Source: Prevotella sp. (lineage in GTDB: Bacteria; Bacteroidota; Bacteroidia; Bacteroidales; Bacteroidaceae). Taken from it: DNA of 53,831 nucleotides. This document shows, piece by piece, positions 14,857 through 50,884 of the stretch. The notes beneath the pieces are model-generated. The model saw only the letters and a list, made by a program, of their open reading frames with translations. It had not been told where the DNA came from and made no database searches. Position numbers and translations under genes: made by a program. Each line of letters begins with the position of its first letter. The stretch's first letter is position 1. The stretch lies in the NCBI GenBank assembly GCA_017467535.1, contig JAFUST010000071.1, positions 1 through 53,831 on the forward strand. Reading direction: 5' to 3'.

Positions 14857-17565
14857 TCATTGGTTGCAGAGCAGATGGTAGGGGCAGTTGCGGCAACGAT
14901 CCCTGTCTTCGGTCGGGGTATAGGGAACGGCGGGATTAAACATCTGGTCGATGGTTTCGTTGAGCAATTCCATGAAGCGGGTGCTGTCTGATGCAACGTC
15001 TGCGATGGGCTCCTTGCCGAAGCAAAGCGTGGGGTCGTAGTCGTCGGCCCCTGCATGTTGGATGAAGAGCAGGGCTGGGGAGACTTGTGTCTGTGGATGG
15101 TCGGCTTTGACCAGTGTGGCATAAAGAATGGTTTGCAGGTAATAGTCGCTATGATTTTTCAGGTTCTCCTGTTGGAATACAGCATCGACGTTGGCCAGCG
15201 GTTTGGGCTGGTGGCTACCCGTCTTGTAGTCGACGACGCGGATGCGCTCCTGTCCGTCCTTGACGATGCAATCCAGGCGGTCGATGATGCCACCGATAGT
15301 GGTGGTGATGTGAGGTGTCTGAATGGTGCCCTTTACGTTGCATTCCAATCCGATGATGCTGAATGGAGCCAGCCGCCGGTCAATCTCAAGCAGTTGTCGC
15401 AGGTAGTGGATGATGACCTCGCGGTTGATGATCTGCAGGCCTGTGAGTTCGCCATTGCTGTGCAGTTCCTCATACATAGCCTCGTCGACGGCCCTCTCGA
15501 TGTCTACGCGTGTTTTCAGCAGTTGTTCGATGTCGCTGGCCAGAATTTGGCGGCTCTTCTGCATCAGCCGTTCATAGATGGTTTGCGAAGCCTTGTGGAA
15601 GATATTGCCGAAGACGCGGTTGTCGATGGTGTCATCCTCGTCTTCTTCCGGTTCGAGGAGTCCGCATTCGTACTTGTAGTAATAGCGCAGGGGACAGCGC
15701 AGATAGGCATTGATGGCCGTCGGCGAGAGAAAATCAGTGGTGCGCTTCTTGTCCAAACGGATGACGGGCGGCTCTGCGTGGGGCAGGGCGGCAGGCACCT
15801 GGAGTGTTTCGAAGCGGATGTCGTGACGTAGGTCTTCCACCATCATCTGGAGCATGAAGCGCGACATCTCGCCCGTCTGTCCATCGGTGGTGCTGTTGTT
15901 GTAGAGGATGGCCACGTCGGAGGCACGCTGCAGCAGGCGGTGGAAGTAGTAACTGTAGATGGCCACCTTGTGGTCGATGGTGGTCAATCCGTAGGCCTTG
16001 CGAATAGAATAAGGAATGAAGGAGGTGTCGCTGACGCCGCGAGGCATATTGCCCTCGTTGCATGAGAGCAGCACGACGTGGTCGAAGTCGAGGTTGCGCG
16101 TCTCGAGCACCCCCATCACCTGTAGTCCTTCGGCAGGTTCGCCGTGGAAGGGCACAGAGGTGGATTGCATCAGTTGGTTGATGAGGCGCTGCATGGTGAT
16201 GACGTCCACCAGCAGGTCGCCGCTGTCGGTGAGTCCCTTTAACCTATTTATTAAGGTATAGGCGCGAAAGACGCTTTCCTGGTAGAGCGGATCGTTGCCG
16301 CTGTCTGTAAGGGCGATGCGCTGTAGGATGCGGCAGAGCCAGGGGAGTAGCATATCGTCACTTCTGATGAGCCCTTCGGCTTCGTCGGCAGGCAGTTGGG
16401 CGATGTAGGGATGGCGCATCACGGTCGTCAGGTAGCGATGGCGGAAGCGTTGGCGTTGCTGATCATAACCCATCGTGCGCAGGTTGACCAGCGCATTGAC
16501 CAGTGAGGCAACGGGCGACTGCGTGAGGGGATAGCCAGTGGTGATGTTGACCTTTTCTACCTCGTTAGGCAGGCAGTGGATGATGGTGGGCAGCAGGGCT
16601 TCGTTGCACATCACGACAGCCGTGCGCCGTCCAGCCTCGATGCGACCGTCTTGACGCAGCCATTGTCCCACGTAGTGAGCCTGAGCATTCTCTGTGGTTG
16701 ATGAAACGAAACAGATGTCCTTCTGCTGGGCATACTGGCCGTAGATGGCCTCGTCGGAGGTGTCGAACTCGTTGGGGAAGTCAGCCAGATACTGACCGAT
16801 GTAGTGGCCGGCCTCGTTGTCCTTCATATACGACAGGTCAAAGTCCCAATAGAAGCGGGCCTTGCCCTCTTTCTTCAGGATGGAGAAGAGCCGCTGCTCG
16901 ACTGGCTGCACGAGGTTGAAGCCGATGAAGAGGTAGGTGTCGTGGTTGGTGGCGATGGTATCGCCGCTAACAGAACTGGCCACCTCGCGATAGAGTGCAC
17001 CCTCATAGGCGATACCCTGTTCGGAAAGGCGCTGGTTGAAGTCGTGATAGATGTCGCCCATCTTGGACCAGAGTTTCAGGAAACGCTCTTTTAGCAGCGT
17101 ATTGTGGTCATCGCTGAAATTGCTGAAGAAGCGGCTGATTACCTCCTTCTGCTCGTCAGTCAGATAACTGACGTCGTCCAGTTCGTGGATGTCGCGTAGG
17201 TTGCGGAACACGCTGTCGGCATCGGCCATATTCTTGTCCAGATCGTCGAAGTCGGCCAGCAGCAGTTGGCCCCATCCGTAGAAGTGGTCGAGGGTCTCAT
17301 CGATGCCTGTCTGTGCCGTGAACGACTTGTGCAGGTCGCACACTAGTTTGATGGGGTCGGCCACCGTTCGGCGGGAGTGGCGGCGGAAAAGGTCACTGAT
17401 GGTGATGTAAGCAGGACTCCAGATGGGCTTGTCAGACAGCCGGGCCAGGTGCTCGTTCAGGAAGAGTGAGGCACGCTTGTTGGGGAAGACCACCGCCACG
17501 CGTGAGAGGTCGGTGCCGTATTTGTTGAGGATGTCCTCAGCGACGTATTCTAAGAAAGTCTTCAT
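14857..17565 (-). CDS. addB: AddB-like helicase/nuclease subunit with Fe-S nuclease domain
   Basis: 902 residues, partner of AddA in end resection for RecBCD-type recombination. The N-terminal part has VVFPNKRASLFLNEHLARL, a degenerate helicase region without a classical P-loop. The C-terminal PD-(D/E)xK nuclease shows DRLDCIVKDG and RVVDYKTGSH. The Fe-S staple that clamps the nuclease is formed by a Cys in LRCPLRYYY and three at the C-terminus (CRNCPYHLLC). It overlaps addA by 4 nt. A short SVSGDTIATN peptide near residue 201 is encoded by an inverted repeat resembling two in valS. The codon run at 16231-16262 is unusually AT-rich. Confidence 0.9.
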   Translation of the reverse strand: MKTFLEYVAEDILNKYGTDLSRVAVVFPNKRASLFLNEHLARLSDKPIWSPAYITISDLFRRHSRRTVADPIKLVCDLHKSFTAQTGIDETLDHFYGWGQLLLADFDDLDKNMADADSVFRNLRDIHELDDVSYLTDEQKEVISRFFSNFSDDHNTLLKERFLKLWSKMGDIYHDFNQRLSEQGIAYEGALYREVASSVSGDTIATNHDTYLFIGFNLVQPVEQRLFSILKKEGKARFYWDFDLSYMKDNEAGHYIGQYLADFPNEFDTSDEAIYGQYAQQKDICFVSSTTENAQAHYVGQWLRQDGRIEAGRRTAVVMCNEALLPTIIHCLPNEVEKVNITTGYPLTQSPVASLVNALVNLRTMGYDQQRQRFRHRYLTTVMRHPYIAQLPADEAEGLIRSDDMLLPWLCRILQRIALTDSGNDPLYQESVFRAYTLINRLKGLTDSGDLLVDVITMQRLINQLMQSTSVPFHGEPAEGLQVMGVLETRNLDFDHVVLLSCNEGNMPRGVSDTSFIPYSIRKAYGLTTIDHKVAIYSYYFHRLLQRASDVAILYNNSTTDGQTGEMSRFMLQMMVEDLRHDIRFETLQVPAALPHAEPPVIRLDKKRTTDFLSPTAINAYLRCPLRYYYKYECGLLEPEEDEDDTIDNRVFGNIFHKASQTIYERLMQKSRQILASDIEQLLKTRVDIERAVDEAMYEELHSNGELTGLQIINREVIIHYLRQLLEIDRRLAPFSIIGLECNVKGTIQTPHITTTIGGIIDRLDCIVKDGQERIRVVDYKTGSHQPKPLANVDAVFQQENLKNHSDYYLQTILYATLVKADHPQTQVSPALLFIQHAGADDYDPTLCFGKEPIADVASDSTRFMELLNETIDQMFNPAVPYTPTEDRDRCRNCPYHLLCNQ

Positions 17566-41079: not shown

Positions 41080-41757
41080 ATGCGCAAAGCCCTTATCGTC
41101 CTGTTTGTTGCCATACTATGGCAACCCTCCACCCTCACCGCCCAGACCACTGAGCAGTGGCGAGACTCCCTCGCCCTGCTCAGTCGGGCCATTGAGCGGA
41201 GCCCCCATTCCGTGGAACTGCGCTTGCGCAAGGCCGCCGTCAACCTCGAACTCAGCCAGTGGGACTACGCCATCGAGGAGTACGGCCGCGTGCTCGACCT
41301 CGACTCCCGCAACCTCACCGCTCTCTATTTCCGCGCCTATGCCCACATGCAGTCGCGCCACTATGCACTGGCTGTCGCCGACTACGAGCATATCCTCTCC
41401 ATCGTGCCCAAGCACTTCGAGGCACAACTGGGACTGGCGATGGCCACTAAAAAGGCGGCAGGCAGAACCGAGACCGCTGATCGCTTCAACCAGTTGGTGC
41501 AACTTTTCCCCGATTCGGCTCTGGCCTTTGCTGCGCGTGCTGGCTATGAGATGGAATTGCAGCAGTGGGATGCTGCGCTCTACGATTGGGACGAGGCCAT
41601 CCGTCTCTCCCCCAAGGATATTGGCTTCATGGTGTCGAAAGTAGAGGTTCTGCTTTCCCTTGGCAGGAAACGCGAGGCCAAGTCTCTTCTCGAATCCGCC
41701 ATCGCCGCAGGCACCCCTCGTTCAGCCCTCAAAGATTGGCTCGACCGGTGTAGATAA
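41080..41757 (+). CDS. TPR-repeat periplasmic protein
   Basis: 225 residues from MRKALIVLF; the frame opens 11 codons earlier inside leuB, but only the later start gives a clean signal peptide (MRKALIVLFVAILWQPSTLTA). Five or so TPR-like helix pairs follow (AIERSPHSVELRLRKAAV, AIEEYGRVLDLDSRNLTAL, ALAVADYEHILSIVPKHFEA, ALYDWDEAIRLSPKDIGF). TPRs bind partner proteins; the partner is unknown. Only 7 nt after leuB and followed by a terminator, so it is probably the last gene of the leu operon, with no evident link to leucine synthesis. Confidence 0.88.
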   Translation: MRKALIVLFVAILWQPSTLTAQTTEQWRDSLALLSRAIERSPHSVELRLRKAAVNLELSQWDYAIEEYGRVLDLDSRNLTALYFRAYAHMQSRHYALAVADYEHILSIVPKHFEAQLGLAMATKKAAGRTETADRFNQLVQLFPDSALAFAARAGYEMELQQWDAALYDWDEAIRLSPKDIGFMVSKVEVLLSLGRKREAKSLLESAIAAGTPRSALKDWLDRCR

Positions 41758-41761
41758 CTAT

Positions 41762-41803
41762 AAAAAGAAAGTGTGTCGATTATTTCGACACACTTTCTTT
41801 TTT
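41762..41803. terminator. Bidirectional terminator
   Basis: A near-perfect 18-bp stem (AAAAAGAAAGTGTGTCGA pairing with TCGACACACTTTCTTTTT, loop of 5) lies between convergent genes. The minus-strand gene stops at 41780-41782, in the loop, so its last codons (ESVSK) are part of the hairpin arm. Confidence 0.88.
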
Positions 41804-46372: not shown

Positions 46373-46404
46373 TTTCCCATTCTCGAAAATTCTTTGTACC
46401 TTTG
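46373..46404 (+). promoter_or_regulatory. valS promoter
   Basis: TTTC (46373-46376), 20-nt spacer, TACCTTTG (46397-46404). The -7 box is exact and the -33 box has one mismatch. The 34-nt leader contains no T-box structure. Confidence 0.72.
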
Positions 46405-46438
46405 CACCCCGTAAGAGAAAGCATATTTATAAGTAGGT

Positions 46439-49177
46439 ATGGAAATAGCAAGCAAATACGACCCTAAAGAGGTCGAAGGTAAATGGTATCAGTACTGGCT
46501 TGATAACAAACTTTTCAGTTCGAAGCCAGATGGTCGCGAACCCTATACAATCGTCATTCCGCCCCCCAATGTGACTGGTGTGCTCCACATGGGCCACATG
46601 CTCAACAACACCATTCAGGACATTCTGGTGCGTCGGGCCCGCATGGAGGGCAAGAACGCTTGCTGGGTGCCCGGCACTGACCACGCTTCGATTGCCACCG
46701 AGGCCAAGGTGGTGAAGCGTCTGGCCGAGCAGGGCATCAAGAAGCATGATCTGACGCGTGACGAGTTCCTGAAGCATGCCTGGGATTGGACCGACGAGCA
46801 CGGCGGCATCATCCTGAAGCAACTGCGCCGTCTGGGTGCCTCGTGCGACTGGGACCGCACGGCATTCACCATGGACGAGAAGCGTTCGCAGAGTGTCATC
46901 AAGGTCTTCGTCGACCTCTACCGCAAGGGCTACATCTATCGCGGCCTGCGCATGGTGAACTGGGACCCCAAGGCTCTCACCGCCCTCAGCGACGAGGAGG
47001 TCGTCTACAAGGAGGAGCAGTCGAAACTCTACTATCTGAAATACTACGTCGCCAATGAGGACGGTTCCGTATGTTGCGATAACATCGCAACAAAAGCCGA
47101 CGACGGCAATGTCATCCACAAGGACGACCGCGGCTACTATGCCGTGGTGGCCACCACGCGCCCCGAGACCATCATGGGCGATACCGCCATGTGTGTCAAT
47201 CCCAAGGACCCGAAGAACCAGTGGCTGCACGGCCGCAAGGTGATCGTGCCTCTGGTGAACCGCGTGATTCCCGTCATCGAGGACCGCTACGTGGAGATAG
47301 AGTTCGGCACCGGCTGTCTGAAGGTGACGCCCGCCCACGACAAGAACGACAATATGCTGGGCAAGACCCACAATCTGGAGACCATCGATATCTTCAATCC
47401 CGACGGCACTATCAGCGACCAGTCGACGCTCTACGTGGGCATGGATCGCTTCGCCTGCCGCAAGCAGATTGCCAAGGACCTGGAGGCTGCCGGATTGATG
47501 GAGAAGGTGGAGGACTACACCAACAAGGTGGGCTACTCGGAGCGTAACCCCGACACCGCTATCGAGCCGCGCCTGTCGCTGCAGTGGTTCCTCAAGATGC
47601 AGCACTTTGCCGACATTGCCCTGCCGCCTGTGCTCAACGGCGAGATGCACTTCTATCCGCAGAAGTATGTCAATACCTACAAGAACTGGCTGGAGAACAT
47701 CCAGGACTGGTGCATCAGTCGCCAACTGTGGTGGGGTCACCGCATTCCTGCCTACTACTATGAAGACGAGAAGTTCGTGGTGGCCGAGACTGCCGAGGAG
47801 GCTCTTGCACTGGCTCGCAAGGAGAGCGGCAACGACGGTCTGCAACTCAGCGACCTGCGTCAGGACGAAGATGCCCTCGACACGTGGTTCTCATCGTGGC
47901 TGTGGCCCATCTCGCTGTTCGATGGCATCAACAACCCCGGCAACGACGAAATCAAATACTATTATCCGACCAGCGACCTCGTGACCGGTCCCGACATTAT
48001 CTTCGTCTGGGTGTCCCGCATGATCATGGCTGGCGAGGAGTATATGGGCAAGTTCCCCTTCAAGAATGTCTACTTCACCGGCATCGTGCGCGACAAACTG
48101 GGCCGCAAGATGTCGAAGTCGCTGGGCAACAGCCCCGATCCCATCGGACTCATCGACAAATATGGTGCCGACGGCGTGCGCATGGGCATGATGCTCTCGG
48201 CTCCTGCTGGCAACGACATCCTCTTCGATGAGGCCCTCTGCGAGCAGGGACGCAACTTCAACAACAAGATATGGAACGCCTTCCGCATCGTCAATGGCTG
48301 GCAGGTGAGTCCCGTATGCAGCGATACTATCGCTGCAAACAAGACGGCTGCTGCAAACCAGACGGCCATCCGCTGGATGGAGGCCCGCCTGAAGCAGGCT
48401 AACGAGGAACTGAAGGACCACTTTGCCAAGTACCGCATCAACGATGCCCTGATGACCGTCTACAAACTCTTCTGGGACGAGTTCTCGCAGTGGTATCTCG
48501 AGATGGTGAAGCCAGCCTATGTGAACGGACAGCCGCAGCCCATCGACCGCGAAACCTACGACAAGACGCTGCAGTTCTTCGAGACGCTGCTCAAGATGCT
48601 GCACCCCTTCATGCCCTTCATCACCGAGGAACTCTGGCAGGCCCTCTACGAGCGCAAGCCGGGTGAGAGCATTATGAGCGACAAACTGGAACTGGCCGCT
48701 CCCACAGCCGAGGAACTGCGCCTCATTGCCGACATCGAGCAGGTGAAGCAGGTCGTTTCCGGCGTGCGCACCATTCGCAGTCAGAAGAACATCGCTCCGA
48801 AGGAGAAACTCACGCTGCAGGCCGTCGGCCAGAACCGCTTCGAAACCTACAACGAGGTGATTGCCAAGATGGGCAACCTCTCGCAGATAGCCGTCGTGGA
48901 GCAGAAGGACGCCACATCGTCAGCCTTCATGGTGGGTACCGATGAGTTTGCCGTGCCTCTGGGCGACCTGATCGATGTGGAGGCTGAGATAGAGAAGATG
49001 GAGGCCCAACTGAAGCATCTGGAGGGCTTCCTCACGGGTGTGCAGAAGAAACTGAGCAACGAGCGCTTCGTACAGAACGCCCCCGAGCAGGTGGTGGCCC
49101 TGGAGCGCAAGAAGCAGGCCGATGCCGAGGAGAAGATCGCATCGCTGAAGGAGTCAATCGCTGCATTAAAGAAGTAA
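46439..49177 (+). CDS. valS: Valyl-tRNA synthetase with two palindrome-encoded inserts
   Basis: 912 residues. Class I synthetase that charges tRNA-Val. HIGH motif HMGH (49-52) in [13 protein letters not shown], editing domain with [19 protein letters not shown] in [14 protein letters not shown], anticodon-binding domain, and a C-terminal coiled coil (about 845-912). Two segments look longer than in ValS proteins I recall: [10 protein letters not shown] (210-219), just before the editing domain, and [10 protein letters not shown] (625-634), after the KMSKS domain. Each is encoded by a perfect inverted repeat, and the second is followed by a tandem six-residue duplication ([12 protein letters not shown]). 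Catalytic residues are untouched. Confidence 0.96.
47067..47095 (+). repeat. Palindromic insert 1 in valS
   Basis: GTTGCGAT, loop AAC, ATCGCAAC (47073-47091), flanked by CCGTAT and AAAA. It encodes VCCDNIATK. Same outline as the insert at 48312-48340. Confidence 0.7.
48312..48340 (+). repeat. Palindromic insert 2 in valS
   Basis: GCAGCGAT, loop ACT, ATCGCTGC (48318-48336), flanked by CCGTAT and AAAC. It encodes VCSDTIAAN in the same reading frame as insert 1. The TT/AA pair of insert 1 is CA/TG here, so pairing is kept. An 18-nt direct duplication beginning GCTGCAAACAAGACG lies at 48332-48367. Confidence 0.7.
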
Positions 49178-49183
49178 CGCACT

Positions 49184-50884
49184 ATGGAATGGTTTGTTAA
49201 TCTATTCACTAATACCGAGTCAGTAGCCCACATCGTGCTACTCTATGCCATCGTCATTGCCGTGGGTGTCTACCTGGGCAAGATCAAGGTCTTTGGCATC
49301 TCACTGGGCGTCACCTTCGTGCTCTTTGCGGGCATCGTGGTGGGCCACATCTATCATGCCCTGGGCTATGCCGAGGCCGCGCCGTCGGCCACGCTGACCT
49401 TCATTCAGGACTTCGGCCTCGTGCTCTTTGTCTTCATGATCGGTCTGCAGGTGGGCCCCGGCTTCTTCGAGAGTTTCGGCAAGGCTGGCATCCGTCTGAA
49501 CGGATTGGCCGCCTGTGCCATCCTGCTCAACATCGGCGTGATGTTCGCCTGCTGGGCCATCTTCTTCAACACCGGCGACAACACCACACTGCCCATGATG
49601 GTGGGTACGCTCTATGGTGCCGTGACCAATACGCCCGGTCTTGGTGCTGCCAACGAGGCCCTCGGCTCGCTGGCCAGCCACTTCCAGGGCGGCGCCCCTC
49701 AGATAGCCTCGGCCTATGCCTGTGCCTATCCGCTTGGCGTGCTGGGCATCATCGGCGCCATCATCCTGATTCGCTATATGTGCCGTGTCAAACTGGAGCA
49801 TGAGGAGCAGGCCCTGGAGGCTGAGAGCGAGACCAAGGCCACGCAGAAGCCCCACCATATGCATCTCGAGGTGTCCAATAAGTATCTGGAGGGCAAGACG
49901 CTGCTGCAGGTTCACAACTTCCTGAACCGCGACTTCGTGGTGTCGCGCATCCTGCACGACGGCCACGTGAGCATTCCCAACCGCGACACGGTGTTCCACT
50001 TGGGCGACCAGATGTACATCGTCTGCCCGGAGGCCGACTACGAGGCCATCGTGGCCTTCATCGGCCCGGTCATTGAGGTGGACTGGGCGCAGCAGGACCA
50101 GCCGCTGGTGTCGAAGCGCATCCTCGTCACCAATCCCAGCATCAATGGCAAGTCGTTCGGCCAGATGCACTTCTCCAGCGTCTATGGCGTCAACGTGACC
50201 CGCGTCACGCGTCATGGCATGGACATCTTTGCCTCGCCCTCGCTGCCCCTGCAGGTGGGTGACCGCATCATGGTCGTCGGTCCTCAGGATGCCGTTGACC
50301 GTGTGGCCAACAAGATGGGCAACAGCATCAAGCGCCTCGACGCGCCCAACATCGCCACCATCTTCGTCGGCATCATTGTGGGCATCCTCTTCGGTTCGCT
50401 GCCCTTCATCCCCGGCATGCCGCTCATGAAACTGGGTATCGCCGGCGGCCCGCTGATTATTGCCATCCTCATCGGCCGCTACGGCTACAAGGTGAAACTG
50501 GTGACCTACACCACCACCTCGGCCAACATGATGCTGCGCGAGATTGGCCTGGTGCTCTTCCTCGCGTCGGTGGGCATCAAGGCAGGCGCCAACTTCTGGG
50601 CCACGGTATCCACGACAGCCGGCCCGCTGTATGTGCTCACGGGTTTCCTCATCACCATTATACCTATATTAATTATAGGGCCGATAGCCCGCCGGATGAA
50701 GTTCAACTACTTCACCATCGCAGGCATGATAGCCGGCACCTACACCGATCCCCCCGCACTGGCCTACTCCAACAGCATCTGCTCGAAGGAGGCACCTGCC
50801 GTGGGCTACTCGACGGTCTATCCGCTGTCCATGTTCCTGCGCATCCTGACGGCACAACTCATTGTGATATTCTTCTGTGGATGA
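49184..50884 (+). CDS. AspT/YidE-YbjL-type putative transporter with two TrkA-C domains
   Basis: 566 residues: five N-terminal membrane segments (about 15-205), two regulator-of-K+-conductance C domains in the middle (about 225-300 and 305-385; [19 protein letters not shown] and [14 protein letters not shown]), and about six C-terminal segments (390-566). Paired inner-membrane halves with Gly/Thr-rich [13 protein letters not shown] and [14 protein letters not shown] motifs fit the aspartate:alanine exchanger superfamily. The substrate is not predictable. It follows valS by 6 nt, so it is co-transcribed, and precedes the decarboxylase genes by 53 nt. An AT-rich codon run occurs at 50658-50681. 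Confidence 0.88.

Follow-up and report, generated by a model that had tools for sequence, protein, structure and literature searches.

The question raised by this locus is how one valyl-tRNA synthetase gene of a Prevotella species came to carry two related palindromes within its reading frame. The gene, valS (46439..49177 on the plus strand, 912 aa), was recognized from the list of open reading frames and from 80 ValS relatives, and lies in the 53,831-nt stretch of DNA that was analysed here as a whole and is called the window below. Both palindromic outlines reported for valS in a sequence-only reading of the window are present as described: with up to two mismatches allowed TGNNGCGATNNNATCGCNNCA has three matches in the window, the exact ones lying at 47072-47092 and 48317-48337, compared with a mean of 0.30 and a maximum of 2 in the shuffled window. 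The unit had been drawn too short, as the outer arms (a GTYC start and an end near RAC) also belong to the element, giving a conserved length of 37 nt; the stem, put at 8 bp, is in both copies a perfect 9 bp with a 3-nt loop. Element 1 (47064..47100, plus strand, stem TGTTGCGAT-AAC-ATCGCAACA), which according to the sequence-only reading would lie before the editing domain, was placed by alignment and scores 47.3 bits (E=1.3e-8) with the covariance model R1 described below; element 2 (48309..48345, plus strand, stem TGCAGCGAT-ACT-ATCGCTGCA) scores 54.8 bits (E=1.3e-10) and is the top-scoring copy in the R1 search of its own genome, being itself one of the 15 seeds of that model. The compensated stem change between the two copies (TT/AA in one, CA/TG in the other) is real, as is their common reading frame (xVCxDxIAxN). 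The 18-nt imperfect tandem duplication noted behind the second copy (48332..48367, plus strand, units 48332-48349 and 48350-48367) is also genuine, with 16 of 18 positions identical when counted by eye (15 of 18 in a register two bases earlier); the 3' arm of element 2 forms the start of its unit, which suggests that it arose by slippage at the hairpin. Rfam gave no match at E<=1 within the valS region (46400-49600). The two valS palindromes belong to a REP-like family of 37-nt hairpins dispersed in Prevotella, which we think is probably copied by RAYT (TnpA-REP) HUH/Y1 transposases, and the evidence is set out below beginning with the family itself.

In the genome from which the window comes the core GCGATNNNATCGC occurs in 14 places and its reversed control in one. 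R1 was built from 15 copies, namely 12 of these 14 core matches (L002 and L006 were left out) and three others, and the genome-wide structure search proposed in the sequence-only reading returned 24 distinct places at E<0.01, 15 of them the seeds themselves. The 37-nt consensus of the 15 aligned copies is GTYCNGTATG-nnGCGATAnnATCGCnn-CAAACnRRAC, in which the 9-bp stem and 3-nt loop are enclosed by outer arms that are partly paired with regular mismatches. Across 86 copies, which had been collected with the structure model, both sides of a pair are altered in 98 cells compared with 27.2 in shuffles, and none of 500 shuffles reached 98. Among the same 86 copies T2 of the GTYC foot is invariant and G1 and C4 are conserved in at least 90%; neither the canonical 5' GT[AG]G foot nor a terminal CGTC tag is present. 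As the core of R1 is nearly fixed, a second search was made with the inner nine bases left free, and in 25 genomes this tip-blind pattern gave 66 matches whereas the reversed pattern gave none. In 61 of the 66 the two inner triplets pair completely, whereas shuffled sets reach 15.9 on average and never more than 29. The tips include GAT/ATC, GTT/AAC, TGT/ACA, GAC/GTC and CAT/ATG among others; the stem sequence is free to vary provided that pairing persists. One locus of a relative (L344:693-840) holds four copies head to tail, spaced at exactly 37 nt in agreement with the unit length (the weakest has E=0.0014), and another (L235:1281-1379) holds a tandem array of three copies close together. 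Two further matches lie in the window. Element 3 (16940..16976, minus strand, R1 41.6 bits, E=4.5e-7) is in frame in the minus-strand ORF 14857-17565, part of which matches the PD-(D/E)XK nuclease superfamily in Pfam, and a weak variant with a GCCAT..ATGGC stem (41098..41134, plus strand, R1 28.4 bits, E=0.0015) overlaps or immediately precedes the start of a gene called at 41131-41748. At 41762-41802 a perfect inverted repeat of 18 bp, with 5 nt between its arms and an A-run followed by a T-run, separates two convergent ORFs and is probably a two-way terminator.

Across the genus R1 found matches in 64 of 150 genomes, the window's own included, with up to 38 per genome when both strands are counted (the maximum being in genome G116). 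These copy numbers are lower bounds, since 23-150 candidates were scored per genome, and they favour the GAT tip because nearly all R1 seeds carry it; genome completeness is mixed, that of the window's own genome being 79%. At the level of the order a broader model (R2), some of whose seed copies came from three RAYT genes (L227, L224 and L208), matched 2 of 294 other genomes at E<=0.001 under strict filters. Most of the ValS relatives in the set bear the name Prevotella or Prevotellaceae. Viral contigs gave no match to the strict element pattern, and among the papers listed from the open-access literature (subscription journals and preprints lay outside its coverage) we came across no description of a Prevotella family with a GTYC foot.

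REPs have been described as largely extragenic, and the Prevotella copies do not follow this pattern. A set of 96 copies was examined, drawn from 154 matches in 79 loci picked among the listed matches with one strand per place (L063 is not a source, and L054 and L064 overlap other loci), and genes were called with a simple home-made hexamer model whose training set was ValS and the genes around it. In this set 64 copies are intragenic and 32 intergenic, and in the window's own genome 20 of 24 are intragenic. The loci concerned are 93% coding, so genes are not strictly preferred, and intergenic DNA is still over-represented, yet genes are not avoided as reported for REPs. Several of the intergenic copies stand just upstream of a start codon. 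The intragenic copies were expected to share one reading frame, and this did not hold: on the same strand as the gene 39 are in phase 1 (read as xVCCDTIATN), 10 in phase 0 (VPYVAIPSQQT) and one in phase 2, while on the opposite strand 10 are in phase 0 and four in phase 1. Stop codons occur in 18% of element frames compared with 43% after shuffling. The expectation that the host proteins would be unrelated was confirmed by a Pfam scan of eight hosts, which comprised CarB, CarA, an outer-membrane efflux protein, a pyridine-nucleotide oxidoreductase, a GH115 protein and the PD-(D/E)XK protein in the window's own genome, and PurL and LeuS in G116. These positions bear on the idea that there is no element at all and that the peptide C-D-x-I-A is naturally palindromic (TGC GAT nnn ATC GCA), the pattern arising from the codons with which a common loop peptide is written. 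At least one weak match, L058@307, in what we take to be a glycine-dehydrogenase-like protein, does look like native coding and was set aside as probably just that. For the strong copies the idea is already contradicted by the other frames, the opposite strand and the intergenic positions, by the fact that the outer arms and the foot match too, and by the reversed-pattern controls (1 versus 14 and 0 versus 66), and as a general explanation we give it almost no credence.

Presence of the inserts was expected to vary among relatives, and it does. When the 80 related ValS loci, most of them with flanks, were searched, the model matched, besides the window, only within ValS and only in L074, L076, L097, L116 and L126; in L076 both sites are occupied, and in L097 the element at site 1 is reversed (E=3e-4). 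Decay is also seen, the core being gone in L075 and altered in L116, where a 7-bp stem is kept, and L068 is decayed as well. With states assigned by hand, site 1 is occupied in 12 of 122 rows and site 2 in 9 of 121. On a tree of 122 ValS sequences, made by a quick method with the inserts excluded from the alignment and duplicate rows (L192, L197 and L230) dropped, presence changes at least nine times at each site, 35 of the 118 inner branches having support below 80. The suggestion that this ValS is longer than its relatives is roughly correct (by hand count 64 of 80 are shorter, two equal and 14 longer), and both sites are loops that vary in length across the family, with no clean insertion into a fixed length. 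The loops also hold other palindromes (TCTAGATAATCTAGA and others) and are thus generally permissive. A different TCTAGA..TCTAGA palindromic repeat, often in tandem and encoding LDNLENLE-type residues, occupies site 1 in nine loci (L067, L082, L086, L091, L105, L109, L143, L245 and L281), and the LDNEEAL loop that is common in further species could, as a guess, be a decayed form of it. At site 2 the 972-aa ValS of L120, from a Bacteroidaceae genome, has a long insert with C-rich/G-rich palindromes (CCCCCCGTGGGGGG) that represents another repeat family.

Two other hosts were compared in the same manner. Among the 18 CarB loci that could be parsed out of 30 (12 could not), a recognizable element is present only in the window's own genome; the corresponding stretch measures 45 nt in this filled gene and 15 nt in 13 others, and it is longer and dissimilar in four. 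In CarA the element has one orientation in the window's own genome (L052) and the opposite one in two relatives (L196 and L214), whose identity as CarA rests on common residues. No exact empty site was obtained in ValS or CarB, the net changes differing from 37 nt (+30 in CarB, while the ValS loops often keep their length), and no target-site duplication was noticed. As these loops differ by insertions together with deletions, they yielded no insertion footprint. Could the hairpin instead be kept for a function in ValS and the other genes, in mRNA folding, translation pausing or as a protein-binding site, the copies stemming from old insertions? The strong conservation of pairing, the occupation of the same ValS loops in several species and the 32 of 96 intergenic copies, several of them just before a start codon, would all fit such a role. 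The low and changeable occupancy of ValS (12 of 122 and 9 of 121, at least nine changes per site), the reversed copy in L097, the unrelated host genes and the decayed copies in L075, L116 and L068 argue against it, and covariation among the copies is equally expected if the mover recognizes the hairpin. We regard selection for such a function as improbable, and consider the ValS copies more plausibly neutral passengers of a mobile family.

A candidate for the mover is found at the elements themselves. In L227, L224, L208 and L289 the ORF that hosts the element bears PDHLH and YLxDNPRR motifs, and neither the two His residues of the HUH motif nor the Tyr varies across 13 aligned proteins of this kind, including one from the window's own genome. 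In NCBIfam these proteins match nothing but REP_Tyr_transpos, with a score that falls short of the curated threshold (E=1.4e-9 for L227); their Pfam Y1_Tnp matches, where there are any, are likewise sub-threshold, and the PDB search reached no better than E=0.08, to chains named transposase, which we take to be of the IS200 type. This RAYT protein has matches in 79 of the 150 genus genomes. Elements (E up to about 0.01) are carried by 24 of 30 RAYT loci, inside the gene in 22 and flanking it within 147 nt in 16, and in the aligned proteins the internal copies lie between the HUH and Tyr motifs. That the copies are carried by RAYT genes weighs against another possible mover, a DDE insertion sequence for which the hairpin would be a MITE-like element with its two arms as terminal repeats. 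A dispersed inverted repeat with conserved ends is what such an element would look like, but no target-site duplication was noticed, and the matches of CCGTATGNNGCGAT in the window's own genome (0-1 mismatch, among those listed, judged by eye) are full or degenerate hairpins with no lone arm; we consider a DDE origin very unlikely. Pfam Y1_Tnp (PF01797) was also tried as a proxy for the RAYT and was rejected as misleading, as it finds mainly other lineages: its association with elements is weaker (47 of 87 genomes versus 17 of 63, p=0.0014) and none of 47 Y1_Tnp loci searched with R2 has an element at E<=0.1.

The link between RAYT and hairpin extends to the tip of the stem. In each of the 15 RAYT units that hold at least two copies the 5' triplet is uniform, a result that none of 100,000 permutations reached, although the units are related (11 of 15 are TGT), so that the permutation overstates their independence, and three of them supplied copies to R2. 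The two RAYTs of genome G144 differ from each other in tip. Of 40 dispersed copies, 24 share their tip with a RAYT of their own genome, where 14.0 would be expected (p=0.015, RAYTs permuted among 13 genomes), most clearly in G036 (6/6), G059 (3/3) and G144 (3/3), while in the tip-blind set G022, G028, G032 and G040 have no dispersed copy that matches their RAYT tip. Elements occur in 20 of 22 genomes with a close RAYT and in 44 of 128 without one (p=6e-7), copies within the RAYT itself being included in the former; two genomes with a close RAYT (G047 and G117) have no element at E<=0.01 in the R1 genus search. The locus lists, RAYT tips and match lists behind the tip and association tests were transcribed by hand. 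In distant RAYT lineages the GTYC foot recurs and the stem differs. A GTYC-tagged hairpin lies in or within 150 nt of 30 of 52 distinct RAYT ORFs, compared with 3.1% of 1.4-kb control windows, although a handful of the 30 resemble chance matches and four of the 52 loci entered the set on account of their elements. Long RAYTs with two-part matches have other repeats in the loop in which the internal copies lie. Other Prevotella RAYT lineages (L381, L385, L387, L388, L389, L391 and L422) have different palindromes or tandem peptide repeats in that loop, with a GTYC-tagged hairpin present in L381, L387, L388, L391 and L422, and together these lineages possibly form a larger superfamily of RAYT-hairpin pairs.

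The GAT/ATC tip, which dominates in the window's own genome (13 of 23 copies) and in G116 (11 of 11), both sets collected with the GAT-biased R1, is the exception. No GAT-tip copy was found at any of the 52 distinct RAYT ORFs, and in the R1 set GAT tips make up 6 of 8 dispersed copies in G059, 2 of 3 in G067 and the single copy in each of G001, G050 and G051, all of which have TGT-tipped RAYTs. G116 has no match to an element-bearing RAYT or to NF047646, and its one Y1_Tnp gene has no element nearby. The RAYT-like ORF of the window's own genome (L148:10010-11296, contig C108) has no element nearby either; the loop that houses the element in other RAYTs here contains a tandem EVHG peptide repeat. 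As no partner RAYT was found for the GAT/ATC copies of this genome they may be relics, and with the genome 79% complete the partner may have been lost or may lie in its unassembled part.

Comparison with known systems places the family close to the REPtrons. Like them it consists of a short palindrome (37 nt, within the range of 21-65 nt) in many dispersed copies (24 places in the window's own genome); RAYTs are flanked by cognate copies in related genomes (16 of 30 loci) though not in the window's own, and each RAYT has its own stem type (15 of 15 units, 24 of 40 dispersed copies), with the own-genome GAT tip lacking a partner among the RAYTs found. The nearest described relative is RAYT subclass 2.4 (group 4; PMC6006769), which likewise combines a HUH and Tyr enzyme with a specific palindrome per enzyme, counts Bacteroidetes among its taxa and has double-foot REPs inserted in tnpA-REP. 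There the REP is in frame between the HuH and Y motifs, as it is here in the 22 of 30 loci with an internal copy, the position being taken from the alignment. The foot differs, being GTYC with a partly complementary 3' end in Prevotella and GT[AG]G...C[TC]AC in subclass 2.4, and so do the motifs ((P)DHLH and YLxDNP here; NH[IFV]H, WQ and YIxNNP there), as compared letter by letter. Also unlike subclass 2.4, the Prevotella protein is about 350 aa long and the dispersed copies number tens per genome and are mostly intragenic. The Prevotella family resembles subclass 2.4 and probably works in the same way, differing in foot, motif letters and intragenic copies. Subclass 2.6 (group 5) is also found in Bacteroidetes with non-canonical structures beside the gene; its motifs (NH[LIV]H and YIH[QN]NP) differ, and, with its structures compared at the level of description, some overlap is possible (PMC6006769). 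The CGTC REPs, including RPE-4 and RPE-6 of Rickettsia, have similar stems of 8-9 bp, short loops and reports from Bacteroidetes, and the same paper also gives intragenic REPs with tRNA synthetases among the hosts, but they carry a CGTC tag and reportedly do not flank RAYT genes, whereas the Prevotella family has no such tag and does flank RAYTs (PMC3733652). The sequence-only reading had proposed a coding-tolerant palindromic element similar in principle to the Rickettsia palindromic elements. The dispersal and the likeness in principle stand, as both are in-frame palindromic inserts in unrelated genes; the Rickettsia elements, at about 150 bp, are far longer than the 37-nt Prevotella unit and come from other bacteria (PMC10969869), and with a RAYT transposase as the strongest candidate for the mover the element is REP-like rather than RPE-like.

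In the mechanism that we favour a RAYT (TnpA-REP) HUH/Y1 transposase would copy the family as single-stranded hairpins, each RAYT would recognize its own stem type, and insertions that preserve the frame within tolerant loops, such as the two of ValS, would survive as short peptides such as SVCCDTIATN. That the RAYT moves the hairpins is most likely in view of the internal, adjoining and tip-matched copies, and the single-stranded mode is proposed by analogy with studied relatives: the E. coli RAYT is described as cutting single-stranded REPs, with a requirement for an unpaired bulge and a GTAG motif (PMC8266576), and RAYT-REP coevolution has been reported in gammaproteobacteria (PMC2817692). 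Should the foot direct cleavage, as has been proposed for GTAG (PMC8266576), a GTYC foot would lead us to expect cuts at GA/GG in place of CT. A wider proposal, which we offer tentatively and think rather unlikely as a whole, is that a GTYC-foot RAYT lineage of Bacteroidales spreads ssDNA hairpins that are tolerated or preferentially fixed in protein loops, thereby repeatedly providing and exchanging short peptides in one and the same set of loops of housekeeping enzymes (the two ValS loops, LeuS, CarA, CarB and PurL), as well as within the transposase itself, in which the copy would be a tag that couples enzyme and hairpin.

The family is unlike REPs as they have been described in that 64 of 96 copies are intragenic and in having a foot other than GT[AG]G. 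As many diverged RAYT-hairpin pairs occur within one genus, RAYT-REP recognition becomes testable across natural pairs, and for Prevotella itself the family represents a concrete source of length-variable loops in conserved enzymes.
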